Source: Limisphaerales bacterium (GTDB lineage: Bacteria > Verrucomicrobiota > Verrucomicrobiia > Limisphaerales > UBA8199). Taken from it: a stretch of 36,688 nt of DNA. The notes below the pieces were generated by a model, which saw only the letters and a program-made list of their open reading frames with translations, did no database searches and had not been told where the DNA came from. The stretch lies in the NCBI GenBank assembly GCA_003152225.1, contig PLZQ01000258.1, forward strand, positions 7,915 to 44,602. Reading direction: 5' to 3'. Position numbers and translations under genes: made by a program. Shown here piece by piece: positions 19,456-36,688 of this stretch (position 1 is its first letter; each line of letters opens with the position of its first letter).

Positions 19456-20547
19456 GTGAGGCTCGTTAAGTCCTGCACTTGGCGAGGTTGTCGCTGGCCC
19501 ATCGGCCTGACCTTCGCCGGCCTGGTGTGGATGGCCGCCATTTCCAGCGGCCAGGGTCAGACCGTTTACCAACCCGGCCAGTCGTATTTCGGTCGCAGCA
19601 ACTACATCGAGTATATCGCGGGGGACATGCCGGTGATCTTCTCCGTCCCCCACGGCGGGAGCCTGACGCCATCGGAGATCCCTAACCGCAACTGCGCCGG
19701 CAATTCGGCTGACTGCGCGACCATCAGCGACGGCGAAACCGAAGAACTGGCTCGAGCGATCCAGCAGGCATTCCACAGCCACTACGGCCATTTTCCCCAC
19801 GTGATCATCTGCCGCTTGAAGCGCACCAAGATCGATTGCAATCGGGACATTAGAGAGGGATCCGCAGGCAGTGTTTATGCGCAACAAGCGTGGGAGGAGT
19901 TTCACCGCTACATCAACATCGCCAGCAACGCCGTCGTTGTGAGCACCGGCAGGGGCCTTTACATCGACCTGCACGGCCAGAGCCACCCGGTTAGGCGGGT
20001 GGAACTTGGTTACCTGCTCACGGCCGATCAACTCACAAATAGCGACGCCACCCTGAACCAGCCCGCGTTTGCTCCCCTCAGCAGCTTCCGTTCGCTCGCC
20101 GCTCAGGTGCCGATCCCATTCGCTGAGTTGCTGCGCGGGAGCAACAGCTTCGGCGCGTTGCTATTGGCGCAGGGATATCCTGCTGTGCCAAACTCGGTCA
20201 TGCCCAACACCTGCATCGGCGCCAACTCGACATTCAATCCCACCGACCAGGATCTCTATTTTGGCGGGGGCTATAACACCCGACTGTGCAGTTCCGTCAG
20301 CCAGGGTGGCCCGATCGATGGCCTGCAGGTGGAGGTAAATTACGCCGGCGTGCGCGACACCGCGACGAATCGGACCCGGTTCGCTGCCGCGCTGGCGCAG
20401 GCGATGGAGGTCTTCTTCGCGAGCCACTATCGCATTGATTTGCGAACCGGCGCGGCTCTCGCCGGTGGCACGGCCGGGCCGGCCAGGTTCCACAGCGACC
20501 CCGGCCTGCTGCCTCCTCAGCGCCCTCCGGCTGAAAAGTCCCTCTGA
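19456..20547 (+). CDS. Exported N-formylglutamate amidohydrolase-like protein
   Basis: About 363 residues from GTG 19456, chosen because it gives a normal signal peptide (basic RLVKS...WRGCRW, then GLTFAGLVWMAAISSG, cleavage near GQGQT). ATGs at 19366 and 19393 would give a long untypical N-region. The mature part resembles the N-formylglutamate amidohydrolase fold: VIFSVPHGG near the N-terminus, a Glu-rich helix, KIDCNRDI, YIDLHGQSH and QVEVNYAGVR near the C-terminus. The His/Glu residues in these blocks are the expected metal/catalytic positions. Cytosolic members act in histidine breakdown; an exported one must act on another substrate, perhaps peptide or wall fragments. No histidine-utilisation gene is nearby. 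Substrate unknown. Confidence 0.7.
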   Translation: MRLVKSCTWRGCRWPIGLTFAGLVWMAAISSGQGQTVYQPGQSYFGRSNYIEYIAGDMPVIFSVPHGGSLTPSEIPNRNCAGNSADCATISDGETEELARAIQQAFHSHYGHFPHVIICRLKRTKIDCNRDIREGSAGSVYAQQAWEEFHRYINIASNAVVVSTGRGLYIDLHGQSHPVRRVELGYLLTADQLTNSDATLNQPAFAPLSSFRSLAAQVPIPFAELLRGSNSFGALLLAQGYPAVPNSVMPNTCIGANSTFNPTDQDLYFGGGYNTRLCSSVSQGGPIDGLQVEVNYAGVRDTATNRTRFAAALAQAMEVFFASHYRIDLRTGAALAGGTAGPARFHSDPGLLPPQRPPAEKSL

Positions 20548-20557
20548 TGGGGAACCT

Positions 20558-20572
20558 ATCCAAATGGGGGAT
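20558..20572 (+). promoter_or_regulatory. Shared 15-bp motif, copy B
   Basis: ATCCAAATGGGGGAT, 10 nt after the stop of the hydrolase-like gene and 100 nt before the preferred ATG of the LamG protein. It matches copy A at 13 of 15 positions, with the same inverted ends and inner CCA-N2-TGG. Candidate operator or promoter element for the LamG gene. Confidence 0.5.
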
Positions 20573-20671
20573 GCGTGCTTTCTCCCATGCAGCCACAATT
20601 CTCGCAATTGAACCAGCATGGCAACGAGCCGGAAGTCGCCGGCCACGGTTCGCAAACTGAAAAACAACATT

Positions 20672-23600
20672 ATGAAACCAACCACTAAGACTAGATCCCT
20701 GACAATGGTTGCGGCGGTCTCATTGGCTTTCCTAGCCGGGATGACTGCTCGCGCCGATTATCCCTCCGCCGTCCTCGCTGACGGCCCGCTGACCTACTAC
20801 CGCTTCAATGAAACAGGCCAGGTCTCGATGCCGTACCCGCTGGCGACCAATCTGGGCACCGTGGGCGCGGCCGGCAATGGCACCGACACGACGAGAGTTA
20901 CTCCGTTGGCCCTGACCAGGGGAGTGCCCGGCCCGTTGAATGATCCCTCGAGCAAGGCCATGCGGTTTCCGGGCTTACAGTCGCCGGTGCAGCAGGACCA
21001 GCATGTCCATGTGGATTACAAGTCGGAGTGGAACACTTCTGGACCGTTCAGTGTTGAATGCTGGGCGAAGCCGGAAAGCGCCATGTTCGGAGGCCTCATG
21101 ACCTCGGTTGATTATGGCGTCAGCCCCCATCAAGGCTGGGTGCTTTATCAATCAGACAGCGATATAAACACGGGCAATGGCTGGGTCTTCCGCATGTGGA
21201 CCGCAGGAAGCCTCACTAGCATCGCGGCGGTGAACTACAGTTCAATCCCAGTCAATATCTGGTACCATCTGGTTGGCGTTTTTGACGGCGCTAATGCCAT
21301 GTTGTACGTCAACGGGGTGCAGGTAACCAACGTCCCTTTGGCCAGCACCTACACACCCAATACCAAGGCTGAACTGAGCATCGGCGCCCGTTCGGACTAT
21401 AGCGGGCATACGGACTGGGATTTTCTGGGCAGCGCCGCCGAAGCAGTGTACTACACGAACGCTCTGAGCGCCGGCGAGATTGCCGCGCACTATGCCGCCG
21501 CGACCACCAACGCGACCGGTTACGCCGCGCAGATCCTCGCCAACAATCCAGCCGGCTACTGGCGATTGAATGAACCTTTCGTGCAGACGTTGGCCAAGAA
21601 CAGCGGCAGCGGCGGTGCGGCTTTCGACGGCACCTATAAGTATTTGAGCGCGACGGCCTCCGATCTGGAGGCGCCCGCCTACGGAGGACTCGAGACGACC
21701 AACACGGTGCTTCAGGTCGGCGCCCCCCCCAACGGCTACGTGAGTGTCCCGGCCCTGAACCTCAACAGCGCGACCGCCACCTTCGAGTGCTGGCTCAAGC
21801 GCAATGGAGACCAGGCCCCCTATGTCGGCCTCCTCTTTGACCGGAACGGCGGTTCCAGTTCCGGGCTGGAAATGTACACGAATAACATGCTGAGCTACCA
21901 TTGGAACGATGCGGGCGGGGAATTCGTTTCCGGTCTGGTTGTCCCGGACAACCAATGGACTTACACCGCGCTGGCCATCAGCCCCAGCCGGGCGGTCTTA
22001 TACATGTACGACGGCACAACCTGGAGTTCCGCAACCAATAACCTCCGCAATGCCGCCGCCTCGTTTAACGTCCCGCTGTACATCGGCTCAGATCCGTCCG
22101 CCAGTTCTTACAACGGTCGTTTGGATGAATCGGCCATCTATAACAAGACCCTTACCGCCGGCCAGCTCCGCACCCATGCGCTGGCAGGGTTCGGCGCCAC
22201 TCAGGCGCCCGTTTTCGTGACCGACCCGCCGGTGCAGCTCACTGCGGGCACGATCTATGCCGGCTGGCCGTTTTCGCTGAATGTGGATGCCTACGGCACG
22301 CCGCCGCTCTCGTTCCAGTGGCGCAAGAATGGAGCCAACCTTCCCGACGCCACGAATACCACCTACAGCGTCACCGCTTCGGCGGGAGGTGATTCCGGCA
22401 ACTATGATGTCATCGTTACCAATCCCTACGGCAGCACGACCAACACCGCGACGCTGGCGGTCACGGTGGTGACCACGCCTCCGGATTATACCACGGACCT
22501 CCGCACCTGGCTCACATTTGACGAGACCAACGGCCTGACAGCCCTCGACAACTCTGGCCACAGCCGCAACGGCGCGCTGCAAGGCTTTGCAGGCGATAAC
22601 TCGCAGTGGGTTGCGGGCCGGATCACCAACGCCATCTCGGTCAACCCCGCCTGGAATGGCCAGGTGGTGCTGGTGCCCGATGACGGCGGCCTGAACTTCG
22701 CCACCAGCCAGGAATTCACACTCTCAGCGTGGGTTTACGTCAATGTGCCGGTTCAGAATTACCATCCTGACGGCGCCATCATCGCGAAGGGCACCGGCAA
22801 TGGCGGTGAGCAGTTTTGCCTGGAAATCGACAGCGGCGCCTTCCGCTTCTACGTGCGCGACTCCGGTGGCAACGCGACCGTTGCCCGCACCTCGGTTGCT
22901 CCTAGCGGTGATTGGCAACATGTTTGCGCGGTGTTTAGCGCCTCAAGCGGCGTCATGAAGGTTTACATCAACGGGGTCCAGGCCATCAGCGCGACGCCTC
23001 CGTCCACCCTCTTGGCCAGCACTCACGAGTTGAGCATCGGCGCCCGGCAGTCCGGTTCTGGCGCTTATGACAACGACATGGTTGGCCGCATTGATGACGC
23101 CCGCGTCTATGGCCGCGCCCTGCTTCCAGCCGAAGTGCAGGCGCTCTACAATTCGGCGCCGCATATCACGCCCGTCTTCCTGACCGACCCGCCGGTGCTG
23201 CTCACCCAGGGCACGATCTATGCCGGTTGGCCGTTTTCACTGAATGTGCAGGCGTTCGGCATCCCGCCGCTCACATACCAGTGGCGCAATAACGGGACCA
23301 ACATTCTCAACGCGACGAATACTACCTACAGTGTCACCACCTCGGCAGGAAGCGATTCCGGCAACTATGACGTCGTCGCTACCGATCTCTATGGCAGCAC
23401 GACCAACGCCACGCCGGTAACGGTCACGGTGGTTACCACGCCCCCGGATTATGCCACTGGCCTCCGCACCTGGCTTAGGTTTGATGAGACCAATGGCCTA
23501 ACGGCCCTCGACAGCTCCAGCCACAGCCGCAACGGCACGTTGCAAGGGTTTGCGGACGACAATTCGCAGTGGGTTGCGGGCCTCATCACCAACGCTATCG

Positions 23601-25528
23601 CGGTAAATCCCAACTGGGATCAACAAGTGGTGCTGGTGCCGGACGACGGTGGCCTAAGTTTCGCCAGCAATCTGGAATTCACACTCGCCGCGTGGGTCCA
23701 CATCGACCCGATAGTTCAGAATTACCGTCCTAACGGCGGCATCATTGCCAAGGGTAACGGCGGTGGCGGTGAGCAGTTTTGCATGGACGTTGACGGCGGC
23801 CACTTCCGTTTTTACGTGCGCGACGCCGCTGGCGGCGCGACCGTTTGCGGTACCGCGGTTTCGCCCGACGGCAATTGGCAGCATGTTTGCGCGGTGTACA
23901 GCGCTTCAAGTGGTGTTATGAAGCTCTACATCAACGGGGTCCAGGCCGGCGGCACCACGCCGCCGTCCTCCCTGCTGGCCAGCAGTCACGATGTGAGCAT
24001 CGGCGCCCGGCAGTCCGGGTCCGGCGACGCGTATGACAACGACATGATTGGCCTCATCGATGACGGCCGCGTTTTTGGCCGCGCCCTGGTTCCAGCCGAA
24101 GTGCAGGCGCTTTACAATGCGGCGCCGACCATCGCCCCTTCCATCTCCCAGAACCCGCAAGGGCGGTCCGTTTTTAGCGGCGGCACCGTGAGCCTGAGCG
24201 CGGTGGTTGTGGGCACCGTGCCTATGAAGTACCAGTGGTACAGGGGCGCGACCGCCGTCCCGGGCGCGACCACACCCGCGCTGACGGTTGCCAGTGTCAC
24301 TTCGGCCACCATAGGCGAATACACACTGCGAGCGACCAACGGCGGCGGCTACATCATCAGCGATCCCGCCACCGTGGCGTTGCTGCCCGCGAACGCAAAC
24401 ACCTACGAGTCTTTGGTGGTTGCCGATGCGCCGGAAGCCTATTGGCGGCTCAACGATGCCAGCGGAGCCACCCTAGATTCGATGGGCCGGCATGACGGGT
24501 CGCCTTCCGGGGGTTACTTCGCGCGCGGCCAAACCGGCGCCCTGGCCGACAATGGTGACACCTGCGTTCAGTTCGACAAGGGAAGCCAAGACTTGGTGAC
24601 CGTGCCGTATTCGTCGAACCTAAACGCCGTGCCCTTCAGCATTGAATGTTGGGCACAATACACCGGACCGTCGCCGGTGGATACTTACTACGCTGCCGTG
24701 GGATGCACGGACGCCAGCAACCGAGGGTACGTCGTGTATGCGACGCCGAGCACCACGTGGGAGTGTTGGCTTGGCCGTGGGTCGGACTGGAGTTACGGTC
24801 ACGCGCTAACGCTTCAGCCCAGCGCCTGGACTCACCTGGTGGCGACCTTTGATGGCACCACCGCGAAGATATACAAGAATGGCGTGCTTACCCAATCGTC
24901 GCCTGCGGCGTCGTTCCTCCCGAATCTCAGCCAGCCGTTCTTTATTGGCTGCAACCTGGCGTACGGTGCCTACTACTTCACCGGATTTATTGATGAAGTG
25001 GCTTGCTACAAGAGCGTGCTGTCTCCGGAGCGCGTCAACGCCCACTACAACCTGGGCTGGTACGGCACCAACGCCCTGCCGGTCTTCGTACCTCCACCCG
25101 CGTCGCAGACCGTCGAGGCTGGGGCGACCGCGACCTTCACCGCGACCGTGATCGGCGCGCCGACCCTGAGCTATCAATGGCAGAAGGACGGGGTGAACAT
25201 TCCGGGCGCCACTGGGCTGACCTTGAGCGTAACCAACGTCTATTACACCGACGGTGGCCACCAGTATGCGCTGGCAGCCACCAATGCGGTTGGCGGCGCG
25301 GTCAGCCTGCCCGCGACACTGACGGTCATGCCGCCTGCGTCGCAGACCAACCTGGTGCTGCGCACCCAGGCCGGGAGCTCGGGCGCCGTGCTTGAGCTGA
25401 TCTGGCCCGCCGGCACGCTTTATTCGGCGCCTGCCATGACCGGTCCTTGGACGGCTGTGGGTGACGCTACATTGCCCTACTACACCGTCTCGCCCACGAA
25501 CGCGACGATGTTCTTCCGTCGCGAGTAA
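20672..25528 (+). CDS. Giant exported LamG/Ig-like repeat protein
   Basis: About 1618 residues. ATG 20672 gives a classical signal peptide (MKPTTKTRSLTMVAAVSLAF, cleaved near ARA-DYPS); an ATG at 20618 would add 18 residues. Several concanavalin/LamG modules alternate with Ig-like modules. LamG signs: ECWAKPE, WYHLVGVFDGANAMLYVNGV, SAWVYV, WQHVCAVFSASSGVMKVYIN. Ig signs: PPLSFQWRKNGANLPDA, SGNYDVIVTNPYGSTTN and LSYQWQKDGVNIPGA. The tail resembles a common verrucomicrobial exported C-terminal module (LIWPAGTLYSAP, GPWTAV, MFFRRE). There is no catalytic domain or PEP-CTERM anchor, so glycan binding or adhesion is the likely role. Residues about 514-1155 contain a two-unit duplication. A strong terminator follows. 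Confidence 0.88.
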   Translation: MKPTTKTRSLTMVAAVSLAFLAGMTARADYPSAVLADGPLTYYRFNETGQVSMPYPLATNLGTVGAAGNGTDTTRVTPLALTRGVPGPLNDPSSKAMRFPGLQSPVQQDQHVHVDYKSEWNTSGPFSVECWAKPESAMFGGLMTSVDYGVSPHQGWVLYQSDSDINTGNGWVFRMWTAGSLTSIAAVNYSSIPVNIWYHLVGVFDGANAMLYVNGVQVTNVPLASTYTPNTKAELSIGARSDYSGHTDWDFLGSAAEAVYYTNALSAGEIAAHYAAATTNATGYAAQILANNPAGYWRLNEPFVQTLAKNSGSGGAAFDGTYKYLSATASDLEAPAYGGLETTNTVLQVGAPPNGYVSVPALNLNSATATFECWLKRNGDQAPYVGLLFDRNGGSSSGLEMYTNNMLSYHWNDAGGEFVSGLVVPDNQWTYTALAISPSRAVLYMYDGTTWSSATNNLRNAAASFNVPLYIGSDPSASSYNGRLDESAIYNKTLTAGQLRTHALAGFGATQAPVFVTDPPVQLTAGTIYAGWPFSLNVDAYGTPPLSFQWRKNGANLPDATNTTYSVTASAGGDSGNYDVIVTNPYGSTTNTATLAVTVVTTPPDYTTDLRTWLTFDETNGLTALDNSGHSRNGALQGFAGDNSQWVAGRITNAISVNPAWNGQVVLVPDDGGLNFATSQEFTLSAWVYVNVPVQNYHPDGAIIAKGTGNGGEQFCLEIDSGAFRFYVRDSGGNATVARTSVAPSGDWQHVCAVFSASSGVMKVYINGVQAISATPPSTLLASTHELSIGARQSGSGAYDNDMVGRIDDARVYGRALLPAEVQALYNSAPHITPVFLTDPPVLLTQGTIYAGWPFSLNVQAFGIPPLTYQWRNNGTNILNATNTTYSVTTSAGSDSGNYDVVATDLYGSTTNATPVTVTVVTTPPDYATGLRTWLRFDETNGLTALDSSSHSRNGTLQGFADDNSQWVAGLITNAIAVNPNWDQQVVLVPDDGGLSFASNLEFTLAAWVHIDPIVQNYRPNGGIIAKGNGGGGEQFCMDVDGGHFRFYVRDAAGGATVCGTAVSPDGNWQHVCAVYSASSGVMKLYINGVQAGGTTPPSSLLASSHDVSIGARQSGSGDAYDNDMIGLIDDGRVFGRALVPAEVQALYNAAPTIAPSISQNPQGRSVFSGGTVSLSAVVVGTVPMKYQWYRGATAVPGATTPALTVASVTSATIGEYTLRATNGGGYIISDPATVALLPANANTYESLVVADAPEAYWRLNDASGATLDSMGRHDGSPSGGYFARGQTGALADNGDTCVQFDKGSQDLVTVPYSSNLNAVPFSIECWAQYTGPSPVDTYYAAVGCTDASNRGYVVYATPSTTWECWLGRGSDWSYGHALTLQPSAWTHLVATFDGTTAKIYKNGVLTQSSPAASFLPNLSQPFFIGCNLAYGAYYFTGFIDEVACYKSVLSPERVNAHYNLGWYGTNALPVFVPPPASQTVEAGATATFTATVIGAPTLSYQWQKDGVNIPGATGLTLSVTNVYYTDGGHQYALAATNAVGGAVSLPATLTVMPPASQTNLVLRTQAGSSGAVLELIWPAGTLYSAPAMTGPWTAVGDATLPYYTVSPTNATMFFRRE
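22211..24136 (+). repeat. 963-bp tandem duplication inside the LamG gene
   Basis: Two successive 963-bp units (22211-23173 and 23174-24136; 321 codons each) each encode one Ig-like plus one LamG module. Long stretches are the same or nearly so in both, for example TIYAGWPFSLNV, TNTTYSVT, RTWL, FDETNGLTALD, SGVMK and LSIGARQSGSG-like blocks. DNA identity appears high by eye, indicating a fairly recent duplication or ongoing gene conversion. Confidence 0.85.
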
Positions 25529-25579
25529 ACCTTCGGAGCCAGTGGCGACTGGCCGATGAAGGACCAAATCAGCGCTCGC

Positions 25580-25614
25580 GGCGGCCGGGAACAGTGTTTC
25601 CCGGCCGCCTTTTT
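25580..25614 (+). terminator. Rho-independent terminator after the LamG gene
   Basis: A perfect 12-bp stem, GGCGGCCGGGAA (25580-25591) with TTCCCGGCCGCC (25598-25609), a 6-base loop CAGTGT, and TTTTT at 25610-25614. It lies about 50 nt after the LamG stop and is the clearest terminator in the window. Confidence 0.92.
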
Positions 25615-25620
25615 GCTGCC

Positions 25621-25707
25621 CGTCAGACCGGCAATCGAGGCCGCACATATACGCTCATCGAGCTGCTCGTGATCATCGCGATCCTTGCGGAGCGACCAGA
25701 ACTGTGA
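25621..25707 (+). pseudogene. Pseudopilin N-terminus relic
   Basis: A 28-codon frame ending in TGA (25705-25707) contains YTLIELLVIIAILA, the hydrophobic prepilin N-terminus normally written [18 protein letters not shown]. The basic leader is partly visible (RQTGNRGR), but no start codon precedes it and nothing of the globular domain follows. It lies between the LamG terminator and the sialidase-like gene. Two complete pseudopilin genes occur downstream (26988 and 27930), so this is most likely the stump of a third one. Confidence 0.7.
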
Positions 25708-25722
25708 TCATCTCCTGAAACC

Positions 25723-26868
25723 ATGAACCGCCGAACATTCCTGCGAAGCGCCAGTCTGGCCGTGACGGCGTCGATGCTTGGCATCGACCTCACAGCCCGC
25801 GCGGCTGAGAACGCCGTGGTGTTGGATTTGGAGCCTGACCGCGCCAACCCGCGCAATTCCGAGGGATCGTTCGTCACCCTCAAGTCGGGACGGATTCTGT
25901 TGTACTATACCAGCTTCTACGGCGGAGCCGGGGACGAGAGCCCGGCGCGGATCGTGAGCCTGCAATCGGACGACGCTGGCCAGAGTTGGAGCCGGGAGCC
26001 CCGGTTAGTCATTGAGAACCAGGCCGGGGCAAACGTGATGAGCGTGTCGTTGCTCCGGCTGCACAGCGGGGCCATCGCCTTGTTTTACCTGGTGAAGAAC
26101 AACCTGCTGGATTGCCGGCCAATGATGCAGCTTTCCACCGATGAGGCGGTAACGTGGTCCGAGCCCCGATCGGTTGGGGCTGCCCCCGGTTATTTCGTCC
26201 TTAACAACGACCGTGTGATCCAACTCAAGGATGGGCGTCTGGTGGTGCCGGTGGCCTTTCATCGGGCACGCGCCTCCGACCCAAAGAACTACCGTTCGCT
26301 CGACATGCGGGGCATCGCGCTGTGGCATCTGTCTGACGACGAAGGCAAGAGCTGGCGGGAAGCGGACACCTGGTGGGCGTTGCCCGCCCGCACCGCCACC
26401 GGCCTGCAGGAACCGGGAGTCGTCGAGCTCGCCGATGGCCGCTTGTTCAGTTGGATGCGCACCGATCAGGGCGCCCAATTCGGTTCTTACAGCACTGACG
26501 GTGGGAAGAGTTGGTCGTCGCCGGAAGCGACCGCTTTGTCGTCGCCCGCGTCGCCAGCCAGTATCAAGCGCCTGCCTGGTTCCCCCGACCTGCTCGCGGT
26601 TTACAATGACCATTCGGGCCGGTTTCCTTTCCCAAAAGGCAAACGCACACCGCTGGTGGCGGCGATCTCCACTGACGGGGGCAAGACCTGGCCGCGGCGC
26701 AAGCTCGTTGAGAGTGATCCGGACGGCTGTTTTTGTTATACCGCTATCCATTTCACGGAGGATGCGGTGCTGCTAGCTTACTGTGCCGGCGACGCCAAGA
26801 TCGGCGGCCTCAACCGCTTGCGCATCCGACGAGTCACCCTGGACTGGCTCAGATTGGAAGCGCCGTGA
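25723..26868 (+). CDS. Tat-exported BNR-repeat sialidase-like hydrolase
   Basis: 381 residues with a Tat-type leader ([13 protein letters not shown], cleavage near ARA-AENA). The body is a six-bladed propeller of the sialidase/neuraminidase superfamily. Five Asp-box motifs (SxDxGxSW) are visible: [18 protein letters not shown] (degenerate), [18 protein letters not shown] and [24 protein letters not shown] and a late Tyr-rich stretch (FCYTAIHF) could carry the catalytic Glu and Tyr. Such proteins in Verrucomicrobiota often act on host or algal glycans, but many BNR proteins are not sialidases, so the substrate is open. It is transcribed after the terminator and pseudopilin stump; no copy of the shared motif precedes it. 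Confidence 0.85.
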
Positions 26869-26908
26869 GCGTGCGCCCGGACCGCGGAGCCGGCAGTCGG
26901 CGTTACCT

Positions 26909-26923
26909 ATCCACTTGTGGGAT
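26909..26923 (+). promoter_or_regulatory. Shared 15-bp motif, copy C
   Basis: ATCCACTTGTGGGAT, with the longest inner palindrome of the set (CCAC-TT-GTGG). It lies 41 nt after the sialidase-like stop and 65 nt before the preferred ATG of the first pseudopilin. Preceded by CT exactly as copy B, giving CTATCCA in both. Confidence 0.5.
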
Positions 26924-26987
26924 GCAACGGACAAGGCAATCTTTGATGCTATCCACCGCGAATGCAGTGTCTATGAGATCTACCGCA

Positions 26988-27800
26988 ATGAACAAGCGAA
27001 ACCAGCGTATCCTCCAGGGTTGCCAAGGCGGGTTCACGCTGATCGAGTTGCTGGTCGTAATTGCCATCATTGCCATTCTGGCCGCCTTGCTGCTTCCCGC
27101 TCTGAGCAAGGCCAAGGCCAAAGGGCAGGGAGTTTCTTGCCTGAACAATCTCAAACAGCTCCAGCTCGCCTGGTTCATGTATGCGAACGACCATAACGAA
27201 CGGCTCGTCTATAATAACTCCCACGGCCCCGCTGAGCCCACTGGGTGGGTTATGGGCTGGCTGCCGACAGTGCAGGACGCCACCAATGTGAACCTCCTCA
27301 AACAGGGGCTGCTCTGGGACTACAATCGATCACTCCCCACCTACAAGTGTCCTGCCGATCGCAGCACGGCCACCGAAGCAGACGGGAAGCCATACCCGCG
27401 CGTGCGCAGCATCTCCATGAACGGCAACATGAATGGCAACAGTTGGTACACGGCCACCATCGAAGGCACGTATTTCACGTACCGGCGGTACCCTGAGATC
27501 GTCCGGCCCTCACCCGCAGGGGCGTTTGTCTTCGTGGATGAGCATCCGGATGACATCGACGACGGCTATTTCCTGGTGAATCTGACCGGGCACGCCGTCT
27601 GGGGCAACATGCCCGCCAATTACCATAATGGGGCGTGCGGTTTCTCTTTTGCCGACGGCCATTCGGAAATCAAGAAATGGCGGGATCCGGACACACTGGC
27701 ATTGCACCCGTCAGCCGCCCCGACGGGCCCTCACGACGTGCCGTGGGTTCAACTCCGGGCTTCAGCGCCCAAGAATGCGGCGCAGCCTTACCCACCCTAG
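26988..27800 (+). CDS. Pseudopilin with H-X9-DG motif (first)
   Basis: 270 residues from ATG 26988, the last of four in-frame ATGs and the one giving a normal short basic leader ([14 protein letters not shown]). The prepilin cleavage/methylation motif [20 protein letters not shown] follows, so the protein would be processed by prepilin peptidase and methylated. The globular part has CPADRST and, near the end, [14 protein letters not shown], a clear H-X9-DG motif of the processing-associated family common in Planctomycetes and Verrucomicrobia. These proteins occur in large numbers per genome and are thought to be type II secretion-like pseudopilins, but the role is unproven. A second, related gene follows after a motif copy. 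Confidence 0.9.
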
Positions 27801-27853
27801 CGAAGGCCATCTTCCGCGGTTCGGAGAGGTGCCGCCTCGATTTGCAGGGTCTT

Positions 27854-27868
27854 ACACATTTGGAGGAT
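27854..27868 (+). promoter_or_regulatory. Shared 15-bp motif, copy D (weaker)
   Basis: ACACATTTGGAGGAT, the least conserved copy (left ATCC replaced by ACAC, but inner CATTTGG and GGAT kept). It lies 53 nt after the first pseudopilin stop and 62 nt before the preferred ATG of the second, the same spacing as copy C within 3 nt. Confidence 0.38.
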
Positions 27869-27929
27869 GACACATGCATGGAACTGTATTAGGCTTGCAG
27901 CTATGACTGCGATATTCTGCGAAGCTCGC

Positions 27930-28691
27930 ATGGCGAACACTTCGGGACCCAGTACCTCGCCGCGCAGCCGGGAGGGGTTTACACTGATCGAACTACTGGT
28001 CGTCATCGCCATCATTGCCATTCTCGCGTCGCTGCTCCTGCCCGCGTTGAGCCTCGCTAAAGCCAAGGCGGTTCAGACGCAGTGCCTTTCCAACCTCAAA
28101 CAGCTCAACCTCGCCATGGTGCTTTACTGCGGAGACAACCAAGACCGAACCCCGGGGAGTGAAAGCGCAAACAACCTCACCGGCATCTCGTGGTACGGGG
28201 GCCACAAGGACATCTGGTGGTGGTACAAAGAATTGGACAAAGTCTATGCCGGCGTAAGGCAGGCATCTCCCAGCAATCATATGGTCTTCCGTTGCGCCAA
28301 AGACCGCGGTTGGAAGGACTATGGGTTCCCGATGCCTCACCATGACAACCCAGTGCTCGATTACGGCAGCTATGTGTTCAATGGATGCACCAACCGCGGT
28401 AACCCGAAGAACAGTCTCCTGGACATCCCTTTGACCAACGTCAAACACCCTACGCGCACTTGGCTGATGTCTGAGTGGCCAATCCACTGGGCTTACTCCT
28501 GGCACAAGAGCAAGACAGGAGATGCGGACATTTCCTACAAGGACGCGCTCTGTAACGTCAGCATGGTGGACGGGCATGCCCAGTATATTAAGATCTACTA
28601 TAACCCGTCCGTGCCCAACGGCGACGCCCCCTTCGCCTACGATACCTCAGAGATTCCCGCAAATTATGGTTACCAGAATGCACCGGACTGA
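27930..28691 (+). CDS. Pseudopilin with degenerate H-X9-DG motif (second)
   Basis: 253 residues from ATG 27930 (in-frame ATGs at 27867 and 27903 would lengthen the leader). The leader [16 protein letters not shown] is followed by [20 protein letters not shown]. The mature part shares [15 protein letters not shown] with the first pseudopilin's [15 protein letters not shown], showing common ancestry, but differs afterwards. The end has [13 protein letters not shown], where the His of the H-X9-DG motif is replaced by Lys. Trp/Tyr-rich mid region ([15 protein letters not shown]). It is likely another minor pseudopilin of the same machine. The following gene begins 5 nt after the stop. Confidence 0.88.
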
Positions 28692-28696
28692 TCCTC

Positions 28697-29395
28697 ATGC
28701 GCATCACCTCCTGGCATGACGAGATGGTTTCGGTCCGGGCTTCCTTACGGCCTTGCGCGCCTGGACTGTGGGTCGCTAACCTCGGCCTTGCACTGCTGCT
28801 TGTGTCAGTCTCTCCTGCTTGCAAGCCCAAAGAGCTCCAGGCGCTCCTGGAACCCGGCCAGGCTTTGAGTTCCGTGCTGGCCGAAGAAGCTGTCCGTCTT
28901 GCCGGACCGAAGAAGCAAGTCGCCCTCATTACCCCCGATGCTTCCTGGGGGCCGCCATCCGTCATCGAGGAATCCCTCAGAGGCGCCCTGAAGAAGCACG
29001 GTGTCACCGTGGTCACCGCCAAAGCAGCCAATGTGGGAAACCCCATGTTCTCGGGCGAGATCGGCTTGAAAGCGAAAGACTTCTTCGAGGCGTTAGAGAA
29101 ATCGGCAGGGGCCGGTGCGGTCATTTCGCTGGCTGGCGCGCCGCTCCTCAAGCCAGGTGACGCCGAGCGCGTGAATTCGGATCACCCGCCGGTGCTGGTG
29201 GTCGCAACCGCCATGCAGGGTAATAAGATGGGTCTGCGTGGTGATCCTGTGGCACTGGCTCGACTGCTGGAGGCCAAAGTCATCCAATTGGCCATCATCG
29301 ATGGCGCCGATTCGGCAGTCAACTCCGCCGGCAAACTCGATCCCACCCATGAGCTCTTTTTCCGAAATTACCGCATCCTCCGCCGACCTGATTGA
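28697..29395 (+). CDS. Unknown probable lipoprotein or exported protein
   Basis: 232 residues from ATG 28697 (an ATG at 28724 gives a shorter leader). A hydrophobic stretch (LGLALLLVSVSPAC) ends in a Cys and KPKE, resembling a lipoprotein signal, although the lipobox S-P-A-C is imperfect. The rest alternates beta strands and helices (KKQVALITPD, HGVTVVTAKAANVG, PPVLVVATAMQGN, VIQLAIIDGADS), a pattern reminiscent of a periplasmic-binding or Rossmann-like fold, but I recognise no family. It begins 5 nt after the second pseudopilin gene and is probably cotranscribed with it. Function unknown. Confidence 0.7.
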   Translation: MRITSWHDEMVSVRASLRPCAPGLWVANLGLALLLVSVSPACKPKELQALLEPGQALSSVLAEEAVRLAGPKKQVALITPDASWGPPSVIEESLRGALKKHGVTVVTAKAANVGNPMFSGEIGLKAKDFFEALEKSAGAGAVISLAGAPLLKPGDAERVNSDHPPVLVVATAMQGNKMGLRGDPVALARLLEAKVIQLAIIDGADSAVNSAGKLDPTHELFFRNYRILRRPD

Positions 29396-29460
29396 TCACT
29401 CCGGCCTGTCGGTCGGCATGGTCGGTGAACGAGAATGGCCTTTACCCATGGTGCCTATGA

Positions 29461-29670
29461 ACGCTGAAGGCCTCGCTTCCCCCGCCGCTCTCGCGCCGCA
29501 AGTTCCTGAGGCGGTCCGCCGGGTTTGCCGGCGCGGCCTTCGCCGTCCCGATGGCTGTGCCGGCGTCCGTTCTCGGCGCCCGATCACTGGCACATGATCT
29601 TGGCCAACGCGGCCCTCCAAGCCGGCAAAGATGTCTCGTGCGAGAAACCGCTCACGCGTAACATCGCTTC
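29461..29670 (+). pseudogene. Relic of a Tat-exported Gfo/Idh/MocA oxidoreductase
   Basis: In one frame (to about 29580) a twin-arginine leader LSRRKFLRRSAGFAGAAFAV, then PMAVPASVLGA, is typical of exported Gfo/Idh/MocA proteins. In another frame from 29582, PDHWHMILANAALQAGKDV and CEKPLTRNIA match the family motif that follows the Rossmann fold (DHWH... CEKPL, with the Lys that contacts substrate). The roughly 90-residue dinucleotide-binding fold between them is missing, as is everything after the CEKPL motif, and no in-frame start remains. Non-functional. Such oxidoreductases commonly sit with rhamnosidase and isomerase genes in verrucomicrobial sugar loci. The rest of the gap to the rhamnosidase gene holds a promoter and a LacI relic. 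Confidence 0.8.
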
Positions 29671-29686
29671 CGCCCCGCAGCTTGTT

Positions 29687-29715
29687 TTGACATGTTGCCC
29701 TTTTCCAGCTATGTC
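29687..29715 (+). promoter_or_regulatory. Sigma70-type promoter before the LacI relic
   Basis: TTGACA (29687-29692), a 17-base spacer and TATGTC (29710-29715). It is placed correctly for the GTG start of the LacI relic at 29728. With that gene gutted, it may now transcribe the rhamnosidase gene with a leader of about 190 nt. Confidence 0.5.
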
Positions 29716-29727
29716 AGTGCCTGGATC

Positions 29728-29893
29728 GTGAACACACTATTGCCGCCTCGGCCGACAATCAAAGACGTGGCCCGCCTGGCCAACGTCTCACAATCCCGAG
29801 GAATTAATCGTGCGCGAATCCACCGGGGTGGCACCGGACGCCAGCCAAAGGCTGAGCGGGACCGGGCTTATTCCCGGTGCCGCGCGGGTGTAA
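29728..29893 (+). pseudogene. LacI-family regulator relic (HTH and C-terminus only)
   Basis: From GTG 29728 the frame encodes NTLLPPRPTIKDVARLANVS, the start of the LacI helix-turn-helix. At 29795 the sequence switches frame to PEELIVRESTGVAPDA, matching the LacI-family C-terminal ending (usually ELIVRxST), running to a TAA at 29891-29893. About 300 codons, the rest of the HTH, the hinge and the sugar-binding core, are gone at one junction. It cannot repress. It lies 21 nt before the rhamnosidase start, so it was presumably the local regulator of the sugar genes. Confidence 0.78.
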
Positions 29894-29914
29894 TTCTGAG
29901 GCTCAATTCCCGGC

Positions 29915-32545
29915 ATGAACCGTCGTGACTTCCTCAAGACCTCCGCTGTCAGCGGCGGCTCCCTCCTGCTGGCGCAATCCGCTTCTGCTGCTGCGGTCGG
30001 CGACGCCCGCAAGCTGGTCAAGCCGGCGTCTGTGGCAACCGTGACTGGGCCAACGCTTCCGGACCTTTCACCCGCCCGCTGGATTTGGTTTCCCTCGGGC
30101 CGCACCCTGCCCAACACCTTCATCCTGTTCCGGCGCCAACTGCATCTGGCCGCCAAGCCTCGTCGCGCTACAGGTTGGATTTGCGCCGACAGCCGTTACC
30201 GGCTCGAGGTCAATGGCCAGCGTGTGCAGTGGGGACCCGCCCCGTGCGACCCCCGCTGGGCCGAGGCTGACCCGCTGGATCTGACTGGCTGTCTGCAAAC
30301 CGGGGAGAATGTCCTGGGTGCCACCGTCCTGTTCTACGGCACCGGTGACGGCACCTGGCCGCTGGGCAAGCCGGGCTTCCTGTTCTGGCTGGAAATCGAG
30401 CACGCCGACGGCCGAGTGGAGAGGGTCGTTTCCGACGCTGCCTGGCGGGCGTTGCTATGCCGGGCTTGGCCGCCGGGCCACCCCAAACGCTGGTATTTGC
30501 GCGCCTTGCAGGAGGAGTTCGACGCCCGACTCTACCCGCACAATTGGTCCCGCCCCGACTTCCAAACGGATGCCCATTGGCTGCCGGCCATGCCGCTGAA
30601 TGGTTCGCCCAATAAACCCGCGCTCGGCACCAATTACTACGAATACATGCTCGATCTGGGTGGCGGACCGCCCGACACCCAACTGCGGCCCCGCAGCATT
30701 CCGCTCCTGCGGGAGTCGTTTGTGCCCGCCGCCAAACTGGCCGAAACCTTCTGGCTGGAATGGCGCGTCACGCCACAGGACTATTTCGACTTCCGTGTCC
30801 CGGACGCCTTCCAGGCCCAACGCAGGGATGTGGCCGCTGAGCCCGCCCCCGGCCAATGGCGGGTGGAACTGGACGGCAGCCGAGGAGCAGCGCTGACTTT
30901 CGAGCTTGCTGAGCAGGTGGTCGGCTGGCCCGGCTTTACGATTGAGGCGCCCGCCGGCACGACGATCGAGCTATTGGTCCACGAAGCCCACGCCCTCGGC
31001 GGGCCGCCGCTCTTGAACACGCATTATGACTCATGGACTCGCTTCATCTGCCGCGAGGGGAAGAATGAGTTCGAGACCTTCGACTTCGAGAGCTTACGCT
31101 GGCTCCAACTGCACATTCATAACGCCAAAGGCACGGTAGTCGTCAGCGATGTCCGCGTGCGGCGCCGCGTCTTTCCCTGGCCCAATGAGCCGCGCATTCG
31201 CACCAGCGAGCCGGCCCTCCAACGCCTCTTCGACGCCTCTCTTAACACCCTCAACAACTGCGCCCAGGAAACGCTGGTGGACGGCATGGCCCGCGAGCGC
31301 CAGCAATACAGCGGCGATGGCGGGCACCAGATGCACGCCGTACATCTGGCCTTCGCGGAGCGGCGCCTGGTGGCTCGCTACCTGGCGACCTGGAGCCAGG
31401 GCCTGACCAAGGACGGTTACTTTCTGGACTGCTGGCCCGCCTACGACCGGCTGGCACGGCTGGTGGAACGCCAGTTTGACCTTACCGGCTGGGGACCCAT
31501 TCTGGACCATGGCGTGGGGTTCATCTTAGATTGCTGGAGTCATTACCTTTACACGGGCGACCAGGAAGCGTTGCGGGAGCCGTATCCGCGACTGCTCCGG
31601 TTCGCGCAGTATCTGCAGGGCCTGATCGGCGCCGACAGCTTGCTGCCGGTTGAGAACTTCGGCATCCCCTCGGTCTGGATTGACCATGTCGCTTATGGAC
31701 GCCAACGGCACAAGCAATGCGCCTTTAATCTCTATGCCGGCGCCGCTATGGAACACGCTTTGGCGCCCCTCTGCCGCGCGTTTGGCGATGTCGGTCAGGC
31801 TGAGGCCGTCGAGCAGTTTGGCCAGGAATTGGTCGCGGCAACGGTCAGCCGGTACTGGAGCCCGGAGCGCGGGTTGTTTATCAACAACCTGCCGTGGCTG
31901 GCGGAAGAAAAGTCTCCGCGCACCTGTGACCGCTCATTGGCCACAGCCATACTGTTCGATCAGTTCCCGGACAGCCAAAGCGCCGCCGCAGTGCGTTCGC
32001 TGGTGGAATGCCCGCCGGAGATGGGCTTTTCCTATCCCGCCAACGCCGGCTGGCGCCTGTGGGCGCTGGCCAGGAGCGGGCGCGCGGACGTGATCGTCGC
32101 GGACTTGCGCCGGCGCTGGGCGACCATGGCCTCGGTTAAGGAGAACAATACCTTGCAAGAGGACTGGCAAGCGCTGCCTGATTCTGGCGCCCAATGGAGC
32201 CACTGCGCGGTCGTGCCGATTTACATTGCTTACCACGGCTTGCTGGGTCTGAAGCCGTTGGAACCCGGCTTCAAACGCTTCGAGCTCCGGCCACAGCTTG
32301 GTGACCTCGAAGATCTCGACCTGACGGCATTTACCGTTCAGGGTCCGGTGAGTCTGCGCTCACGCGGAATGCTCGGCGAGCGCGAGCTGGTATTGCAGTT
32401 GCCGTCCGGCGGCCAGGGGGAATTGGTCTTGCCGCAGGACGAGGCCAGCGACCTGCCTGTCGCCGCCGGACCAGGCCCGGCCGGACATCGCCGCTTCAAG
32501 TTGGCCGCCGGCAGCGCGGTGACACTTCGCCTCAAGCACGTGTAG
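29915..32545 (+). CDS. Tat-exported alpha-L-rhamnosidase-like glycosidase (GH78 type)
   Basis: 876 residues with a Tat leader (NRRDFLKTSAVSGGSLLLAQ). N-terminal beta domains (PARWIWFPSGRTLPNTFILF, an accessory domain common in rhamnosidases) precede a six-hairpin (alpha/alpha)6 barrel with DGMARERQQYSGDGG at 456-470. That block aligns with the GH78 D-x3-R-D/E-R-x3-x-GD acid motif. A Trp-rich barrel and a C-terminal beta domain (PGFKRFELRPQ) follow. It would release L-rhamnose or related sugar from polysaccharide or glycosides. The specific substrate cannot be read from sequence; the GH78-like six-hairpin group also includes other activities. LacI and MocA relics lie upstream. Confidence 0.85.
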   Translation: MNRRDFLKTSAVSGGSLLLAQSASAAAVGDARKLVKPASVATVTGPTLPDLSPARWIWFPSGRTLPNTFILFRRQLHLAAKPRRATGWICADSRYRLEVNGQRVQWGPAPCDPRWAEADPLDLTGCLQTGENVLGATVLFYGTGDGTWPLGKPGFLFWLEIEHADGRVERVVSDAAWRALLCRAWPPGHPKRWYLRALQEEFDARLYPHNWSRPDFQTDAHWLPAMPLNGSPNKPALGTNYYEYMLDLGGGPPDTQLRPRSIPLLRESFVPAAKLAETFWLEWRVTPQDYFDFRVPDAFQAQRRDVAAEPAPGQWRVELDGSRGAALTFELAEQVVGWPGFTIEAPAGTTIELLVHEAHALGGPPLLNTHYDSWTRFICREGKNEFETFDFESLRWLQLHIHNAKGTVVVSDVRVRRRVFPWPNEPRIRTSEPALQRLFDASLNTLNNCAQETLVDGMARERQQYSGDGGHQMHAVHLAFAERRLVARYLATWSQGLTKDGYFLDCWPAYDRLARLVERQFDLTGWGPILDHGVGFILDCWSHYLYTGDQEALREPYPRLLRFAQYLQGLIGADSLLPVENFGIPSVWIDHVAYGRQRHKQCAFNLYAGAAMEHALAPLCRAFGDVGQAEAVEQFGQELVAATVSRYWSPERGLFINNLPWLAEEKSPRTCDRSLATAILFDQFPDSQSAAAVRSLVECPPEMGFSYPANAGWRLWALARSGRADVIVADLRRRWATMASVKENNTLQEDWQALPDSGAQWSHCAVVPIYIAYHGLLGLKPLEPGFKRFELRPQLGDLEDLDLTAFTVQGPVSLRSRGMLGERELVLQLPSGGQGELVLPQDEASDLPVAAGPGPAGHRRFKLAAGSAVTLRLKHV

Positions 32546-32616
32546 CAGGGACGCTGGCAGCACTTGGCCGCGCTCTAAACCCCTGAACCTCCCTCACCCT
32601 CATCAGCGCTTCGAAA

Positions 32617-32700
32617 CATCCAACAACCAACATCCAACATCGAACCTCCAATGGTTGCCATTTGGGTGATTATTCGATGTTGGATGTTGGATGTTGGATG
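32617..32700. repeat. Large inverted repeat between convergent genes
   Basis: Left arm 32617-32644 (begins CATCCAACAACC, ends CAACATCGAA) and right arm 32673-32700 (begins TTCGATGTTGG, ends TGTTGGATG) are complementary over 28 bases with one mismatch; the loop is 28 nt. The arms are built of near-identical GATGTTG steps and the right arm continues to about 32706. It lies between the ends of the convergent rhamnosidase and lyxose isomerase genes, so it could serve as a bidirectional terminator. Such GATGTTGG repeats look like dispersed repeats of this group, which needs a genome search. Confidence 0.85.
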
Positions 32701-32740
32701 TTGGGGTCCGCCACTTCGCTTTGGAAACCGGTGTGACAGA

Positions 32741-33421
32741 TCAACGACCGTCTGGGTATTCGTTGCACAACAGATGCGCCGGCGCTTCGTCTTCCTCAAT
32801 GGCCGGGAAGCGCGGGAGCGGCGTGTAGAAGCGGTTGTCGCTGGCATCGTCGTTGACGCTGGAGACCTCGCCGATCAATGCCGTGCCGGCGCCTTTCTCC
32901 CCGTAGAACGTGTGGTAGAGCCCCGGTACGAGTGTAATGCTCTCGCCTTGCCCCAACACGACTTTCCCGCCGGGCGCGACCTCGCGGACCACACCATCAC
33001 AGCTCACCTTGATCGGCGTCTGGGCATAGCCGCCGTGCGGATCGGAGTTGTAAAGCTCGCACACCAGCCGGCCGGCTCCGCGGTTGATGATGTCCTCGGT
33101 CTTGAGATGGTGGAAATGCCACGGCGTGATCTGCCTCTCGCGCACCACCATGATCTTCTCGGCATACATCTTCTTGTTCTGCGGGTCATCGAGCTTGCCG
33201 TTGCGGATGGTGAACAGCAGCAACCCCTGCTTGAGGAAGTCCCCGCTGCCGAAGTCGGTCAGATCCCACCCCAAATGGCGCGAGCGGATTTCATCAACCT
33301 CGTGCCCCAGGCTCTTCCATTGCCGGGTCGTCCAGTAACCAAAAGGTGGAAGGCGGAATTGGTGCTGATCAAAGAAGACCTTCGCTTCTTCGATATACCG
33401 GTTTATCTCGGATCGCTTCAT
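32741..33421 (-). CDS. D-lyxose isomerase
   Basis: 226 residues on the minus strand, cupin-fold D-lyxose ketol-isomerase (EC 5.3.1.15, YdaE family), which interconverts D-lyxose and D-xylulose and can act on D-mannose. The start MKRSEINRYIEEAKVFF is the family start and gives the usual length (about 227). Metal-site motif TPWHFHHLKTEDI and NRGAGRLVCELYN, later LVPGLYHTFYG with further His, agree with the family. Longer upstream reading (to 33607) lacks homology. It is read convergently with the rhamnosidase gene, across the inverted repeat. It may provide an intracellular step in breakdown of the sugars released by the neighbouring exported glycosidases. Confidence 0.9.
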   Translation of the reverse strand: MKRSEINRYIEEAKVFFDQHQFRLPPFGYWTTRQWKSLGHEVDEIRSRHLGWDLTDFGSGDFLKQGLLLFTIRNGKLDDPQNKKMYAEKIMVVRERQITPWHFHHLKTEDIINRGAGRLVCELYNSDPHGGYAQTPIKVSCDGVVREVAPGGKVVLGQGESITLVPGLYHTFYGEKGAGTALIGEVSSVNDDASDNRFYTPLPRFPAIEEDEAPAHLLCNEYPDGR

Positions 33422-33634
33422 GCCCGCCAGTAAACCACTCTGCCGGCGACCGGTCAACCGCACCCTGACGATGCCGAGCTCGCGGCAAGCGTTTCCCGCC
33501 TTGACGTATCGGCAGTCTCTGGGCCAATCTTTCGGCATGATTTTCATGGGAGTCCGATGTGGTTTTACGCCCGCATAACCTGTTGGAGTGTCAACCGCCA
33601 GGACCAAGAGGATACCCTATAAAATCTAGGCTCT

Positions 33635-33710
33635 GCCCCCATAGCTCAAATGGATAGAGCGGCGGTTTCCTAAACCGTTGATCCCTGTTCAATTCAGGGT
33701 GGGGGTACCA
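33635..33710 (+). tRNA. tRNA-Arg (anticodon CCU)
   Basis: 76 nt including an encoded CCA. Acceptor GCCCCCA pairs with TGGGGGT; D-stem GCTC/GAGC; anticodon stem GCGGT/ACCGT with loop TTCCTAA, so anticodon CCT, reading AGG (Arg); T-stem CCCTG/CAGGG with loop TTCAATT, an unusual TTC variant. The discriminator is A. A TATAAA box at 33618-33623 could be its -10 element, and a run of T follows the CCA. The CCU isoacceptor gene is a frequent integration site in bacteria, but no integrase is recognisable here. Confidence 0.95.
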
Positions 33711-33872
33711 TTTTTGTTCGGCGGCTAACCTCGGTAACCGCAGGCATTTCCGGCACTGCCCAGGTTGCCGGGAGCTTGCTTGAGTTTTCGAGCCACCTCG
33801 ATTGGCTCTCCGCCGATGGTCGCCAGTCGTCTCCAGCCGTCTGAAATCCTGGACTGGGTTACCCCCGGAGGG

Positions 33873-34277
33873 TTACACACAGCATTCACCCTCGGAAGAG
33901 CCTATGGCGCACAGGACGAGACGCTGGCGGAAGCCCATCCCGAACACCAGGTTTAGCTGAGGGGAAGCCGAAACGTCGCGCTTGCCGTGGTCATACACCG
34001 CCTGTACGTCGGGCGGAAATACCGACTGATAATGATCGTTTACGTGAACGGCGGGATTGGTCCAAAGATGGAAGCTCTGCGGGAGCGGCGTGGGATTGAA
34101 GAGGCGGATGTTGATTTCGAGCAAGGCCTTGTCCGGGAAGAGCGTCAAGCCGAGGATGCCTTTGAGGTGCCACATCGGCTCGATTTCGCTGAGCCAAAGG
34201 GTGCGGCTGCCGTCCGGGTTTACGGTGATGGTGTGATCGACCGGGCAATAGGTGCCGGGCCGGTTACAGCTTCCCAA
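33873..34277 (-). pseudogene. DUF5107 protein fragment joined to the 3' end of the GH31 gene
   Basis: A minus-strand frame of 134 residues whose core, CPVDHTITVNPDG, LSEIEPMWHLKGILGLTLFP, NPAVHVNDHYQSVFPP and DVQAVYDHGKRDVS, matches the DUF5107 domain of large TPR-containing proteins. Those proteins are several times longer, so the first part of DUF5107 and all TPR repeats are missing. The match stops at DHGKRDVSASP and the sequence then diverges to a stop. The frame overlaps the last 58 bases of the GH31 gene and its leading residues are out of frame with it, as if a deletion joined the two. It has no credible start or ribosome binding site. 33711-33872 contains only a dubious minus-strand ORF. 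Confidence 0.72.
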
Positions 34278-36490
34278 CGCACAATCTTATAGCGCCGTCC
34301 GGTGAAGGCGCCCGTGCGCTCTGCTTTCCCACCTGCCGCCTGATCACAAGTCAAGACCACACGGCTCGCCGCGCCGGACTCGAAATCGAAGGTCGTCCCG
34401 TCGTCTTCAAACAGCGTGAACGGCGTGGGGCGTTCGCCGAACACTTTGACCGTGATTTCGAAAACAGTAGCGCCGTCAATCTGCTGCACCGGTTCCGCGA
34501 GTGGCAAGAGCGAGTTCTCCCTGACGAAGAGCGGCATTTCGCCAGGCGAGCCGCTAACCGTTATGTTCGTGCCGCCTTGATGCCATTGTTTGGTTTTCAA
34601 CTCATACCAGGCAACCCCTCGTGGCAGGACTATCTTCCGGGAGGCGGCCTCGCCGAGGAAAGGAGCGGCGAGCAAAGAGTCGCCGAACATGAAGGCATTA
34701 TCGAGCTTCCGAATCTGCGTGTCTTCAGGAAAGTCCAGGAGCAGCGAACGCACCGGCGGCAGCCCTTCGTTATGATACCTTTGAAAGCTGGAATACAGGT
34801 AGGGCAACAGCGTGTAGCGTTGGCTCACGATTGAGCGCAACCGGTCGGCTACCGCTCTCTGCTCCGCTTCCGGGAGCAATTGGCGAGCCTCGTTTTTGGG
34901 ACGATCGTATTGTTCCCAAACGGGGTTGGGCATGAACCACATGTCCAGGCACATCTGCGGCGCAAAGGCGCTCAGGGCCACCCGGTTCAGAAGCTCGTCC
35001 AGGCTATGCGCCTCCCGCACTTCCGGCGACCAGAGCAGCCCGGTGAAGGACGCGTTCACGAGCTGCCGGAGGTATTGGTCGAACGAATAGGCGTCGCTGT
35101 AGAGATTGAACGGCAACGGGGCGGCCAACGCGGTTGTGGCCCGGACGTCGCCCCAGGTGCGCAGGTTGTGCGCTTTGAACGCCGAGAACAACGCCCGCTG
35201 ATAAAGATAGCCGTAGAGTTGTGTCATCTGGTCCCCGTCAATCCCCGATGGGAAGATTGAGCAGTAAGGATAGTTGAAAGGAGTGGCATCGGTGGGCGGT
35301 TGCTTGTCGCATTCGTCGCCTTTGAAACCGAGAATCCCCTTACTGACCAGTTCCCGGTCGTGGTAGTCAGCAAAGATCCGAGACGCTTCGGGATCCACAA
35401 AATCCACAACCAAACCGCCCCACACGAGGAAATCGCCCGCGCGCGATTTCAGCGGCGCGAACAGAGGTGAACTTGGGTGGATATAAGCGTGCTCCCACAG
35501 GTTCACCTTGAATCCGGTTTGCTGGAGTTCCTGGAGCATCTTCGCGGGTTCGGGAAAGCGCTCCTTTGACCAGGTGAACGAGCAAGAATAAGACTTGGAT
35601 TGCCAGCCCGGCTCCAGCCCAATCATGTCGCAAGGAATCTCCATCGCGCGAAGCGCGCGCGCGGTCTTTAAGACAGTCGCTTCGTCCGCCCGGGTGAACG
35701 TCCGGAACTTCAACCCCAGGCCCCACAAGGGCGGGACAGCGCCGCCGCCCGAGAACAAGTTGTAACGCTGCACTGCCTCGCGCATCGTCGGCCCCCCGAA
35801 AACATACACGTCAACTCCCTTGGAATTGCCGGGGAGATCGAAGATGACCTCCGTTCGCCCGCGTGCCGCCCGGGCCGCGTACAACTCTCCTTCAGACGTT
35901 TTGATCTGGCCCGAGCGGGGGTCATCCGCTGCCGCGGACTGATTGGGGGTCAAGCGCGCGACCTCCACCATGGGCACTCTGGCGGTGTCCACGAAAACTC
36001 CGTAGCCCTTTGTGCTCAGGTAAAACGGAACTGGGCCATGGCTGGCTCCGGTTTCCCCGACCACCGCCGCGCAAACCGTCAAGTTCTTGCACAGCCCCTT
36101 TTGTTGGTAAGCTCCCGGATCAAGGCCAAAGCCATAGATCTGCTGTCCCGGTTCCTCGCACGGCACATAAACCGTAGTGCGCGCAGTCGAAATCCGACAG
36201 CGGATTTGGCCCGGCTCGAACGGCAGCGGTGCTGGTGCCGGCAGAGATGCAAATCCCTGGACGCGCGGAGCTGATTCCCTCACTGCCACCGGAGTAAATC
36301 GCTCAGGGGTTCCGAAGCGTACCCGCCACACTCCTGGAAGCAACTGTTCGACGGCGGGTGTTGCCCATTGCGGCGCGGCGGTAACTTCGTTGGTGCCACC
36401 AGCAGGAGGTTGCCGGTCAGAGCCGAATGAACAGGCCGATTGCAGCACGACTTCAAAGCTAAGTGAAAGAGGCAGAAAGAGGCTTCGCAT
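34220..36490 (-). CDS. Exported glycoside hydrolase family 31 enzyme
   Basis: About 756 residues from ATG 36490 (minus strand). The frame stays open to the window edge; ATG 36526 is possible too. The N-terminus (MRSLFLPLSLSFEVVLQSAC) is a signal-like stretch, perhaps lipoprotein. An N-terminal beta-sandwich (YGFGLDPGAYQQKGL, GYGVFVDTA) precedes a TIM barrel with GLEPGWQSKSYSC, the nucleophile region GFKGD392-ECD and NLYSDAYSFDQYL, whose SD likely gives the acid/base Asp. C-terminal beta domains follow (PLFVRENSLLPLA, FTLFEDDG). GH31 includes alpha-glucosidases, alpha-xylosidases and alpha-galactosidases; the specificity is not decided here. The last 18 or so residues (after YKIVRWEAV) run into the DUF5107 relic and are probably foreign to GH31. 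Confidence 0.88.
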   Translation of the reverse strand: MRSLFLPLSLSFEVVLQSACSFGSDRQPPAGGTNEVTAAPQWATPAVEQLLPGVWRVRFGTPERFTPVAVRESAPRVQGFASLPAPAPLPFEPGQIRCRISTARTTVYVPCEEPGQQIYGFGLDPGAYQQKGLCKNLTVCAAVVGETGASHGPVPFYLSTKGYGVFVDTARVPMVEVARLTPNQSAAADDPRSGQIKTSEGELYAARAARGRTEVIFDLPGNSKGVDVYVFGGPTMREAVQRYNLFSGGGAVPPLWGLGLKFRTFTRADEATVLKTARALRAMEIPCDMIGLEPGWQSKSYSCSFTWSKERFPEPAKMLQELQQTGFKVNLWEHAYIHPSSPLFAPLKSRAGDFLVWGGLVVDFVDPEASRIFADYHDRELVSKGILGFKGDECDKQPPTDATPFNYPYCSIFPSGIDGDQMTQLYGYLYQRALFSAFKAHNLRTWGDVRATTALAAPLPFNLYSDAYSFDQYLRQLVNASFTGLLWSPEVREAHSLDELLNRVALSAFAPQMCLDMWFMPNPVWEQYDRPKNEARQLLPEAEQRAVADRLRSIVSQRYTLLPYLYSSFQRYHNEGLPPVRSLLLDFPEDTQIRKLDNAFMFGDSLLAAPFLGEAASRKIVLPRGVAWYELKTKQWHQGGTNITVSGSPGEMPLFVRENSLLPLAEPVQQIDGATVFEITVKVFGERPTPFTLFEDDGTTFDFESGAASRVVLTCDQAAGGKAERTGAFTGRRYKIVRWEAVTGPAPIARSITPSP

Positions 36491-36688
36491 TTTGCAGTTC
36501 GTCACAGCTTTTGATTTCAGAACCATCCTACGGAATTCGCCGTGCCGGTGGAATAGAGAAAGCGATGATTCGCAAGGACAATTCTCTGATTCTTCTGTAT
36601 TGGTAGGACGCACCTTTTCATTTTGGCACCCGCCAGGCATCAGGGAATTTGGAGAAGATGAGAGCCTGCAAGCGAGCACGACCGCCAT

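Follow-up and report, generated by a model that had tools for sequence, protein, structure and literature searches.

Apparent remnants of both ends of a LacI-family gene in a decayed patch beside a rhamnosidase gene of a Limisphaerales bacterium

What remains of the regulator-like gene that lies directly upstream of an intact alpha-L-rhamnosidase-like gene, and did its loss change how that enzyme gene is controlled? Positions 29728-29893 of the 36,688-nucleotide stretch analysed here (the window) raise both questions, as a sequence-only reading had taken them for a gutted LacI repressor and had suggested that the rhamnosidase may have become constitutively expressed. Here we find it very probable that a LacI-family gene persists as its two ends, with about 310 codons lost, that the patch around them is decaying, and that the rhamnosidase is a separately shuffled gene most likely not under LacI control, the remnant itself most likely having no function. 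The features on which this reading is based, and the intact relatives of the LacI-type gene, are collected in Table 1.

Table 1. Features of the window around the LacI-type remnant, and intact members of the matching LacI subfamily
Feature	Positions or record	Strand	Description
Two-gene unit, prepilin-type protein and 232-aa protein	27867..29395	+	Ends just before the debris; pair kept in G010:C10
TAT-type signal remnant	29461..29577	+	Translation SRRKFLRRSAGFAGAAFAVPMAVPASVLGA; taken here to begin an exported Gfo/Idh oxidoreductase
Internal Gfo/Idh/MocA oxidoreductase remnant	29579..29680	+	DHWH...EKPLT part; PF01408
Promoter-like TTGACA - 17 nt - TATGTC	29687..29715	+	Perfect -35, poor -10
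5' remnant of lacI-type gene (N piece)	29728..29793	+	GTG start and 22 codons; translation VNTLLPPRPTIKDVARLANVSQ
3' remnant of lacI-type gene (C piece)	29795..29893	+	PEELIVREST... tail, reads PEELIVRESTGVAPDASQRLSGTGLIPGAARV*; 32 codons and TAA stop
Alpha-L-rhamnosidase-like gene	29915..32545	+	Intact, 876 aa; TAT signal, three rhamnosidase domains
G010:C120 gene, loci L080/L120	PSRM01000263.1, Verrucomicrobia bacterium isolate Amazon FNV 2010 0 4		Intact, 348 aa
L121	MWDV01000133.1		Intact subfamily member
L122	JARYME010000019.1, labelled Armatimonadota		Intact subfamily member
L123	JARKQH010000305.1		Intact subfamily member, the G008 gene
L124	JAQGPC010000162.1, Pedosphaera sp.		Intact subfamily member

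Translation of the two pieces agrees with the coordinates and the junction at about 29794 given in the sequence-only reading. After the GTG the N piece reads RPTIKDVARLANVSQ (29749-29793), and it lies in another frame than the C piece (29749 mod 3 = 1, 29795 mod 3 = 2), with one base between them. The reading frame is thus disabled, as expected of a LacI pseudogene, and both pieces match one intact LacI subfamily in the same order and on the same strand. Among the LacI genes of the family, it is the G010:C120 gene that carries the same two ends, with identical first residues (RPTIKDVA..A.VSQ) at an equal GTG-to-RPT spacing and the same tail (PEELI-RESTG-AP). Unlike that intact gene, whose protein has 348 residues, the window retains the first 22 codons at one end and, at the other, 32 codons of tail from about residue 333, which by comparison leaves a gap of about 310 codons (about 0.93 kb). 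Both ends of the genes at L121, L122, L123 and L124 likewise align with the window pieces, and these genes, unlike the window, are intact.

The first subfamily member was chosen for the resemblance of its ends and is biased toward a match; those beyond the first two were found via mid-protein patterns, by searching genome contigs with mid-protein stretches of the G010 protein and its G008 relative, a search that gave five intact genes. A profile built from these five relatives scores 37.2 bits on the N piece and 37.5 bits on the C piece, the top-scoring places in the window, while the maxima in 300 Markov-1 random windows were 24.9 and 22.3 bits, and none of the 300 attained the score of either piece. 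With an order-wide profile (38 LacI proteins of the order, minus the two then-known members of the matching subfamily) no other places in the window score as high as the pieces, at 11.9 and 20.1 bits; of the 200 random windows scored, at least 5 beat the N score and 2 the C score, so that by this profile taken alone the N piece stands out less clearly. A full-length LacI profile gives 2.4 and 1.3 bits on the pieces, near-zero scores that are expected because the pieces are so short. On intact loci it detects five of five, and the short N-end profile four of five. Five imperfectly read loci (L040, L043, L050, L070 and L079) were excluded in profile building. At the level of sequence, these comparisons identify 29728-29893 as both ends of a LacI-family gene from a small subfamily that is intact in other Verrucomicrobiota, and the view of the locus as a gutted LacI gene is borne out.

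The start of a helix-turn-helix had also been recognized, and this holds for helix 1 and the turn but not for the whole motif: PF00356 matches the N piece over no more than profile positions 1-14 of 46 (E 0.002, 18.3 bits, under the cut-off of 27), and a Pfam search of the C piece gave no match. Compared with the intact gene, the recognition helix, the hinge and the periplasmic-binding-protein-like ligand core are all missing. With some 310 codons gone no repressor can be made; the remnant yields no DNA-binding repressor and is now most likely without function. We suggest that the gene was inactivated and shortened through at least one internal deletion. The sequence at the junction is caa-tcc-cga, and in three of the five intact relatives a serine (TCC) follows the site where the N piece stops; possibly a short TCC or CC was common to the deletion ends.

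A second gutted gene lies directly upstream of the LacI remnant, and the 519 bases between the end of the open frame at 29395 and the rhamnosidase start at 29915 were read as containing no intact gene. PF01408 matches the internal Gfo/Idh piece above its cut-off of 24 (E 8.5e-6, 26.9 bits, positions 71-108 of 120), in a frame that differs from that of the signal piece before it. Since Pfam gave no match of value on the signal piece, it was assigned to Gfo/Idh from the arrangement seen in intact genes of G006 and G001, signal followed by Gfo/Idh, and the two pieces would derive from one gene. When 13 genomes of the family were searched with the debris as DNA query, the matches were the window itself, Gfo/Idh-like stretches at about query positions 188-266, and some weak ones. 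The loss of the LacI gene may be viewed as part of the decay of this 0.5 kb patch, gutted Gfo/Idh gene included.

The patch sits between two flanking units. To its left, the prepilin-type gene and the gene for the 232-aa protein (itself without a Pfam match) recur as a pair at L117 988-2658 in G010:C10, with other genes after them, so each flank looks like a unit of its own. To its right, the rhamnosidase comprises an N-terminal, a six-hairpin and a C-terminal domain; its TAT signal falls slightly below the Pfam cut-off. It is under purifying selection: dN is 0.06-0.27 against a dS of 0.45-1.9 in five comparisons, and the dN/dS ratio stays at about 0.11-0.14 throughout, with synonymous sites near saturation for G001, G256 and G009. 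Ten other copies are present, one in the same genome and one each in 9 of the 319 other genomes of the order, so that 10 of 320 genomes, including this one, bear the gene. DNA similarity to the second copy in the same genome (contig C251) starts at 29903, 12 bases before the ATG, and to the G001 copy at 29913, two bases before it; in both it stops at the gene end, 32544-32545. The rhamnosidase would thus be a single gene, shuffled separately, that ended up next to the debris, most likely without having been under LacI control.

LacI proteins often adjoin sugar genes under their control, and the suggestion that this one repressed the rhamnosidase locally, its loss leaving the gene constitutive, draws on the position of the remnant directly upstream and on the same strand, and on the GH2, MFS or CBM96 genes near intact subfamily members (10 of 32 listed ORFs scanned). 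The relatives argue against it. A profile search of the 1.2-1.57 kb upstream of the ten other rhamnosidase copies detected a LacI gene or remnant in none, the best scores being -1.0 bits (full profile), 2.0 (N end) and 2.3 (C end) as against 2.4, 9.7 and 14.5 bits for the same profiles in the window; the start codon is inexactly placed in three of these ten copies (G046, G137 and G211). Conversely, the comparison with relatives holding an intact lacI-type gene, proposed along with the constitutive reading, placed this rhamnosidase in the compared flanks of none of the five intact subfamily genes (best tblastn E 0.064, with the query that had worked in the analysis upstream of the rhamnosidase copies). 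No relative was seen to carry an intact lacI gene at this place, and a linkage of regulator and rhamnosidase is not conserved among them. The idea is further weakened by the second decayed gene directly upstream, and by the C251 and G001 copies, which share no further upstream DNA with the window.

A good promoter is also lacking. The sequence at 29687-29715 had been described as consensus-like, a description that did not hold up: the -35 TTGACA is perfect and the -10 TATGTC matches the consensus at three of six positions. A scan for consensus promoters, with other promoter types outside its scope, found no promoter-like site in 29380-29960, and three sites in 20000-36688 versus 3.8 in shuffles. 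Taken with the missing linkage, this leaves the constitutive reading unsupported; we consider a local repressor of the rhamnosidase unlikely here, and with relatives that lack the linkage we reject a gene made constitutive through LacI loss.

The genome is a draft in 563 contigs (89.8% complete, 5.9% contaminated), and the pieces might have been misjoined inside an intact lacI gene during assembly. The junction DNA matches nowhere else in the assembly, and the second gutted gene beside the LacI remnant makes decay the simpler reading, so we regard such an artefact as very unlikely. It is highly improbable that loss of the repressor freed the secreted rhamnosidase and left a start codon and frame to act as its leader. 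That the 66-codon frame from GTG 29728 is a new leader peptide coupling translation to the rhamnosidase is scarcely credible: it is open to the stop at 29926-29928 and shares 14 bases with the start of the rhamnosidase gene, but beyond codon 22 it is lacI tail in the wrong frame, it is not common to the two copies compared as DNA, and such a length is unremarkable at 62% G+C.

Deletion-driven decay of bacterial genes is well known. As in decaying bacterial pseudogenes at large (a subject of Kuo and Ochman 2010, PMC2916853), a gene has been inactivated and shortened by deletion, and nothing notable differs. With no sign that LacI ever controlled the rhamnosidase, the locus can be understood as ordinary bacterial gene decay. 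Its significance beyond this genome is small, as one more decayed regulator gene; it also cautions that a broken regulator beside an enzyme gene should not be taken as a sign of lost control when relatives show no linkage. Among the titles and abstract openings listed, none describes the 29728-29893 locus; a comparison of rhamnose catabolism regulons across bacteria (PMC3870299) has no bearing on it.

The LacI pieces were found only once in the same genome, and an intact donor gene there was considered and rejected, as its two LacI genes are of other types by their ends. A class-wide LacI search (384 genomes) returned distant LacI proteins only, at 26-34% identity among the matches listed. The subfamily member at L122 5878-7023 (59% identity), in the record labelled Armatimonadota, reflects either inter-phylum transfer or a misbinned contig. 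Two faults break the second rhamnosidase copy (L013 7024-9661, 86.8% DNA identity): its frame shifts near residue 583, and it contains an internal TGA. This copy is either a recent pseudogene or the product of a sequencing fault. Past the end of the intact rhamnosidase, a short repeat at 32615-32709 of the window matches a single place on that copy's contig, C251 (L012 9936-10037), and does so in both orientations.
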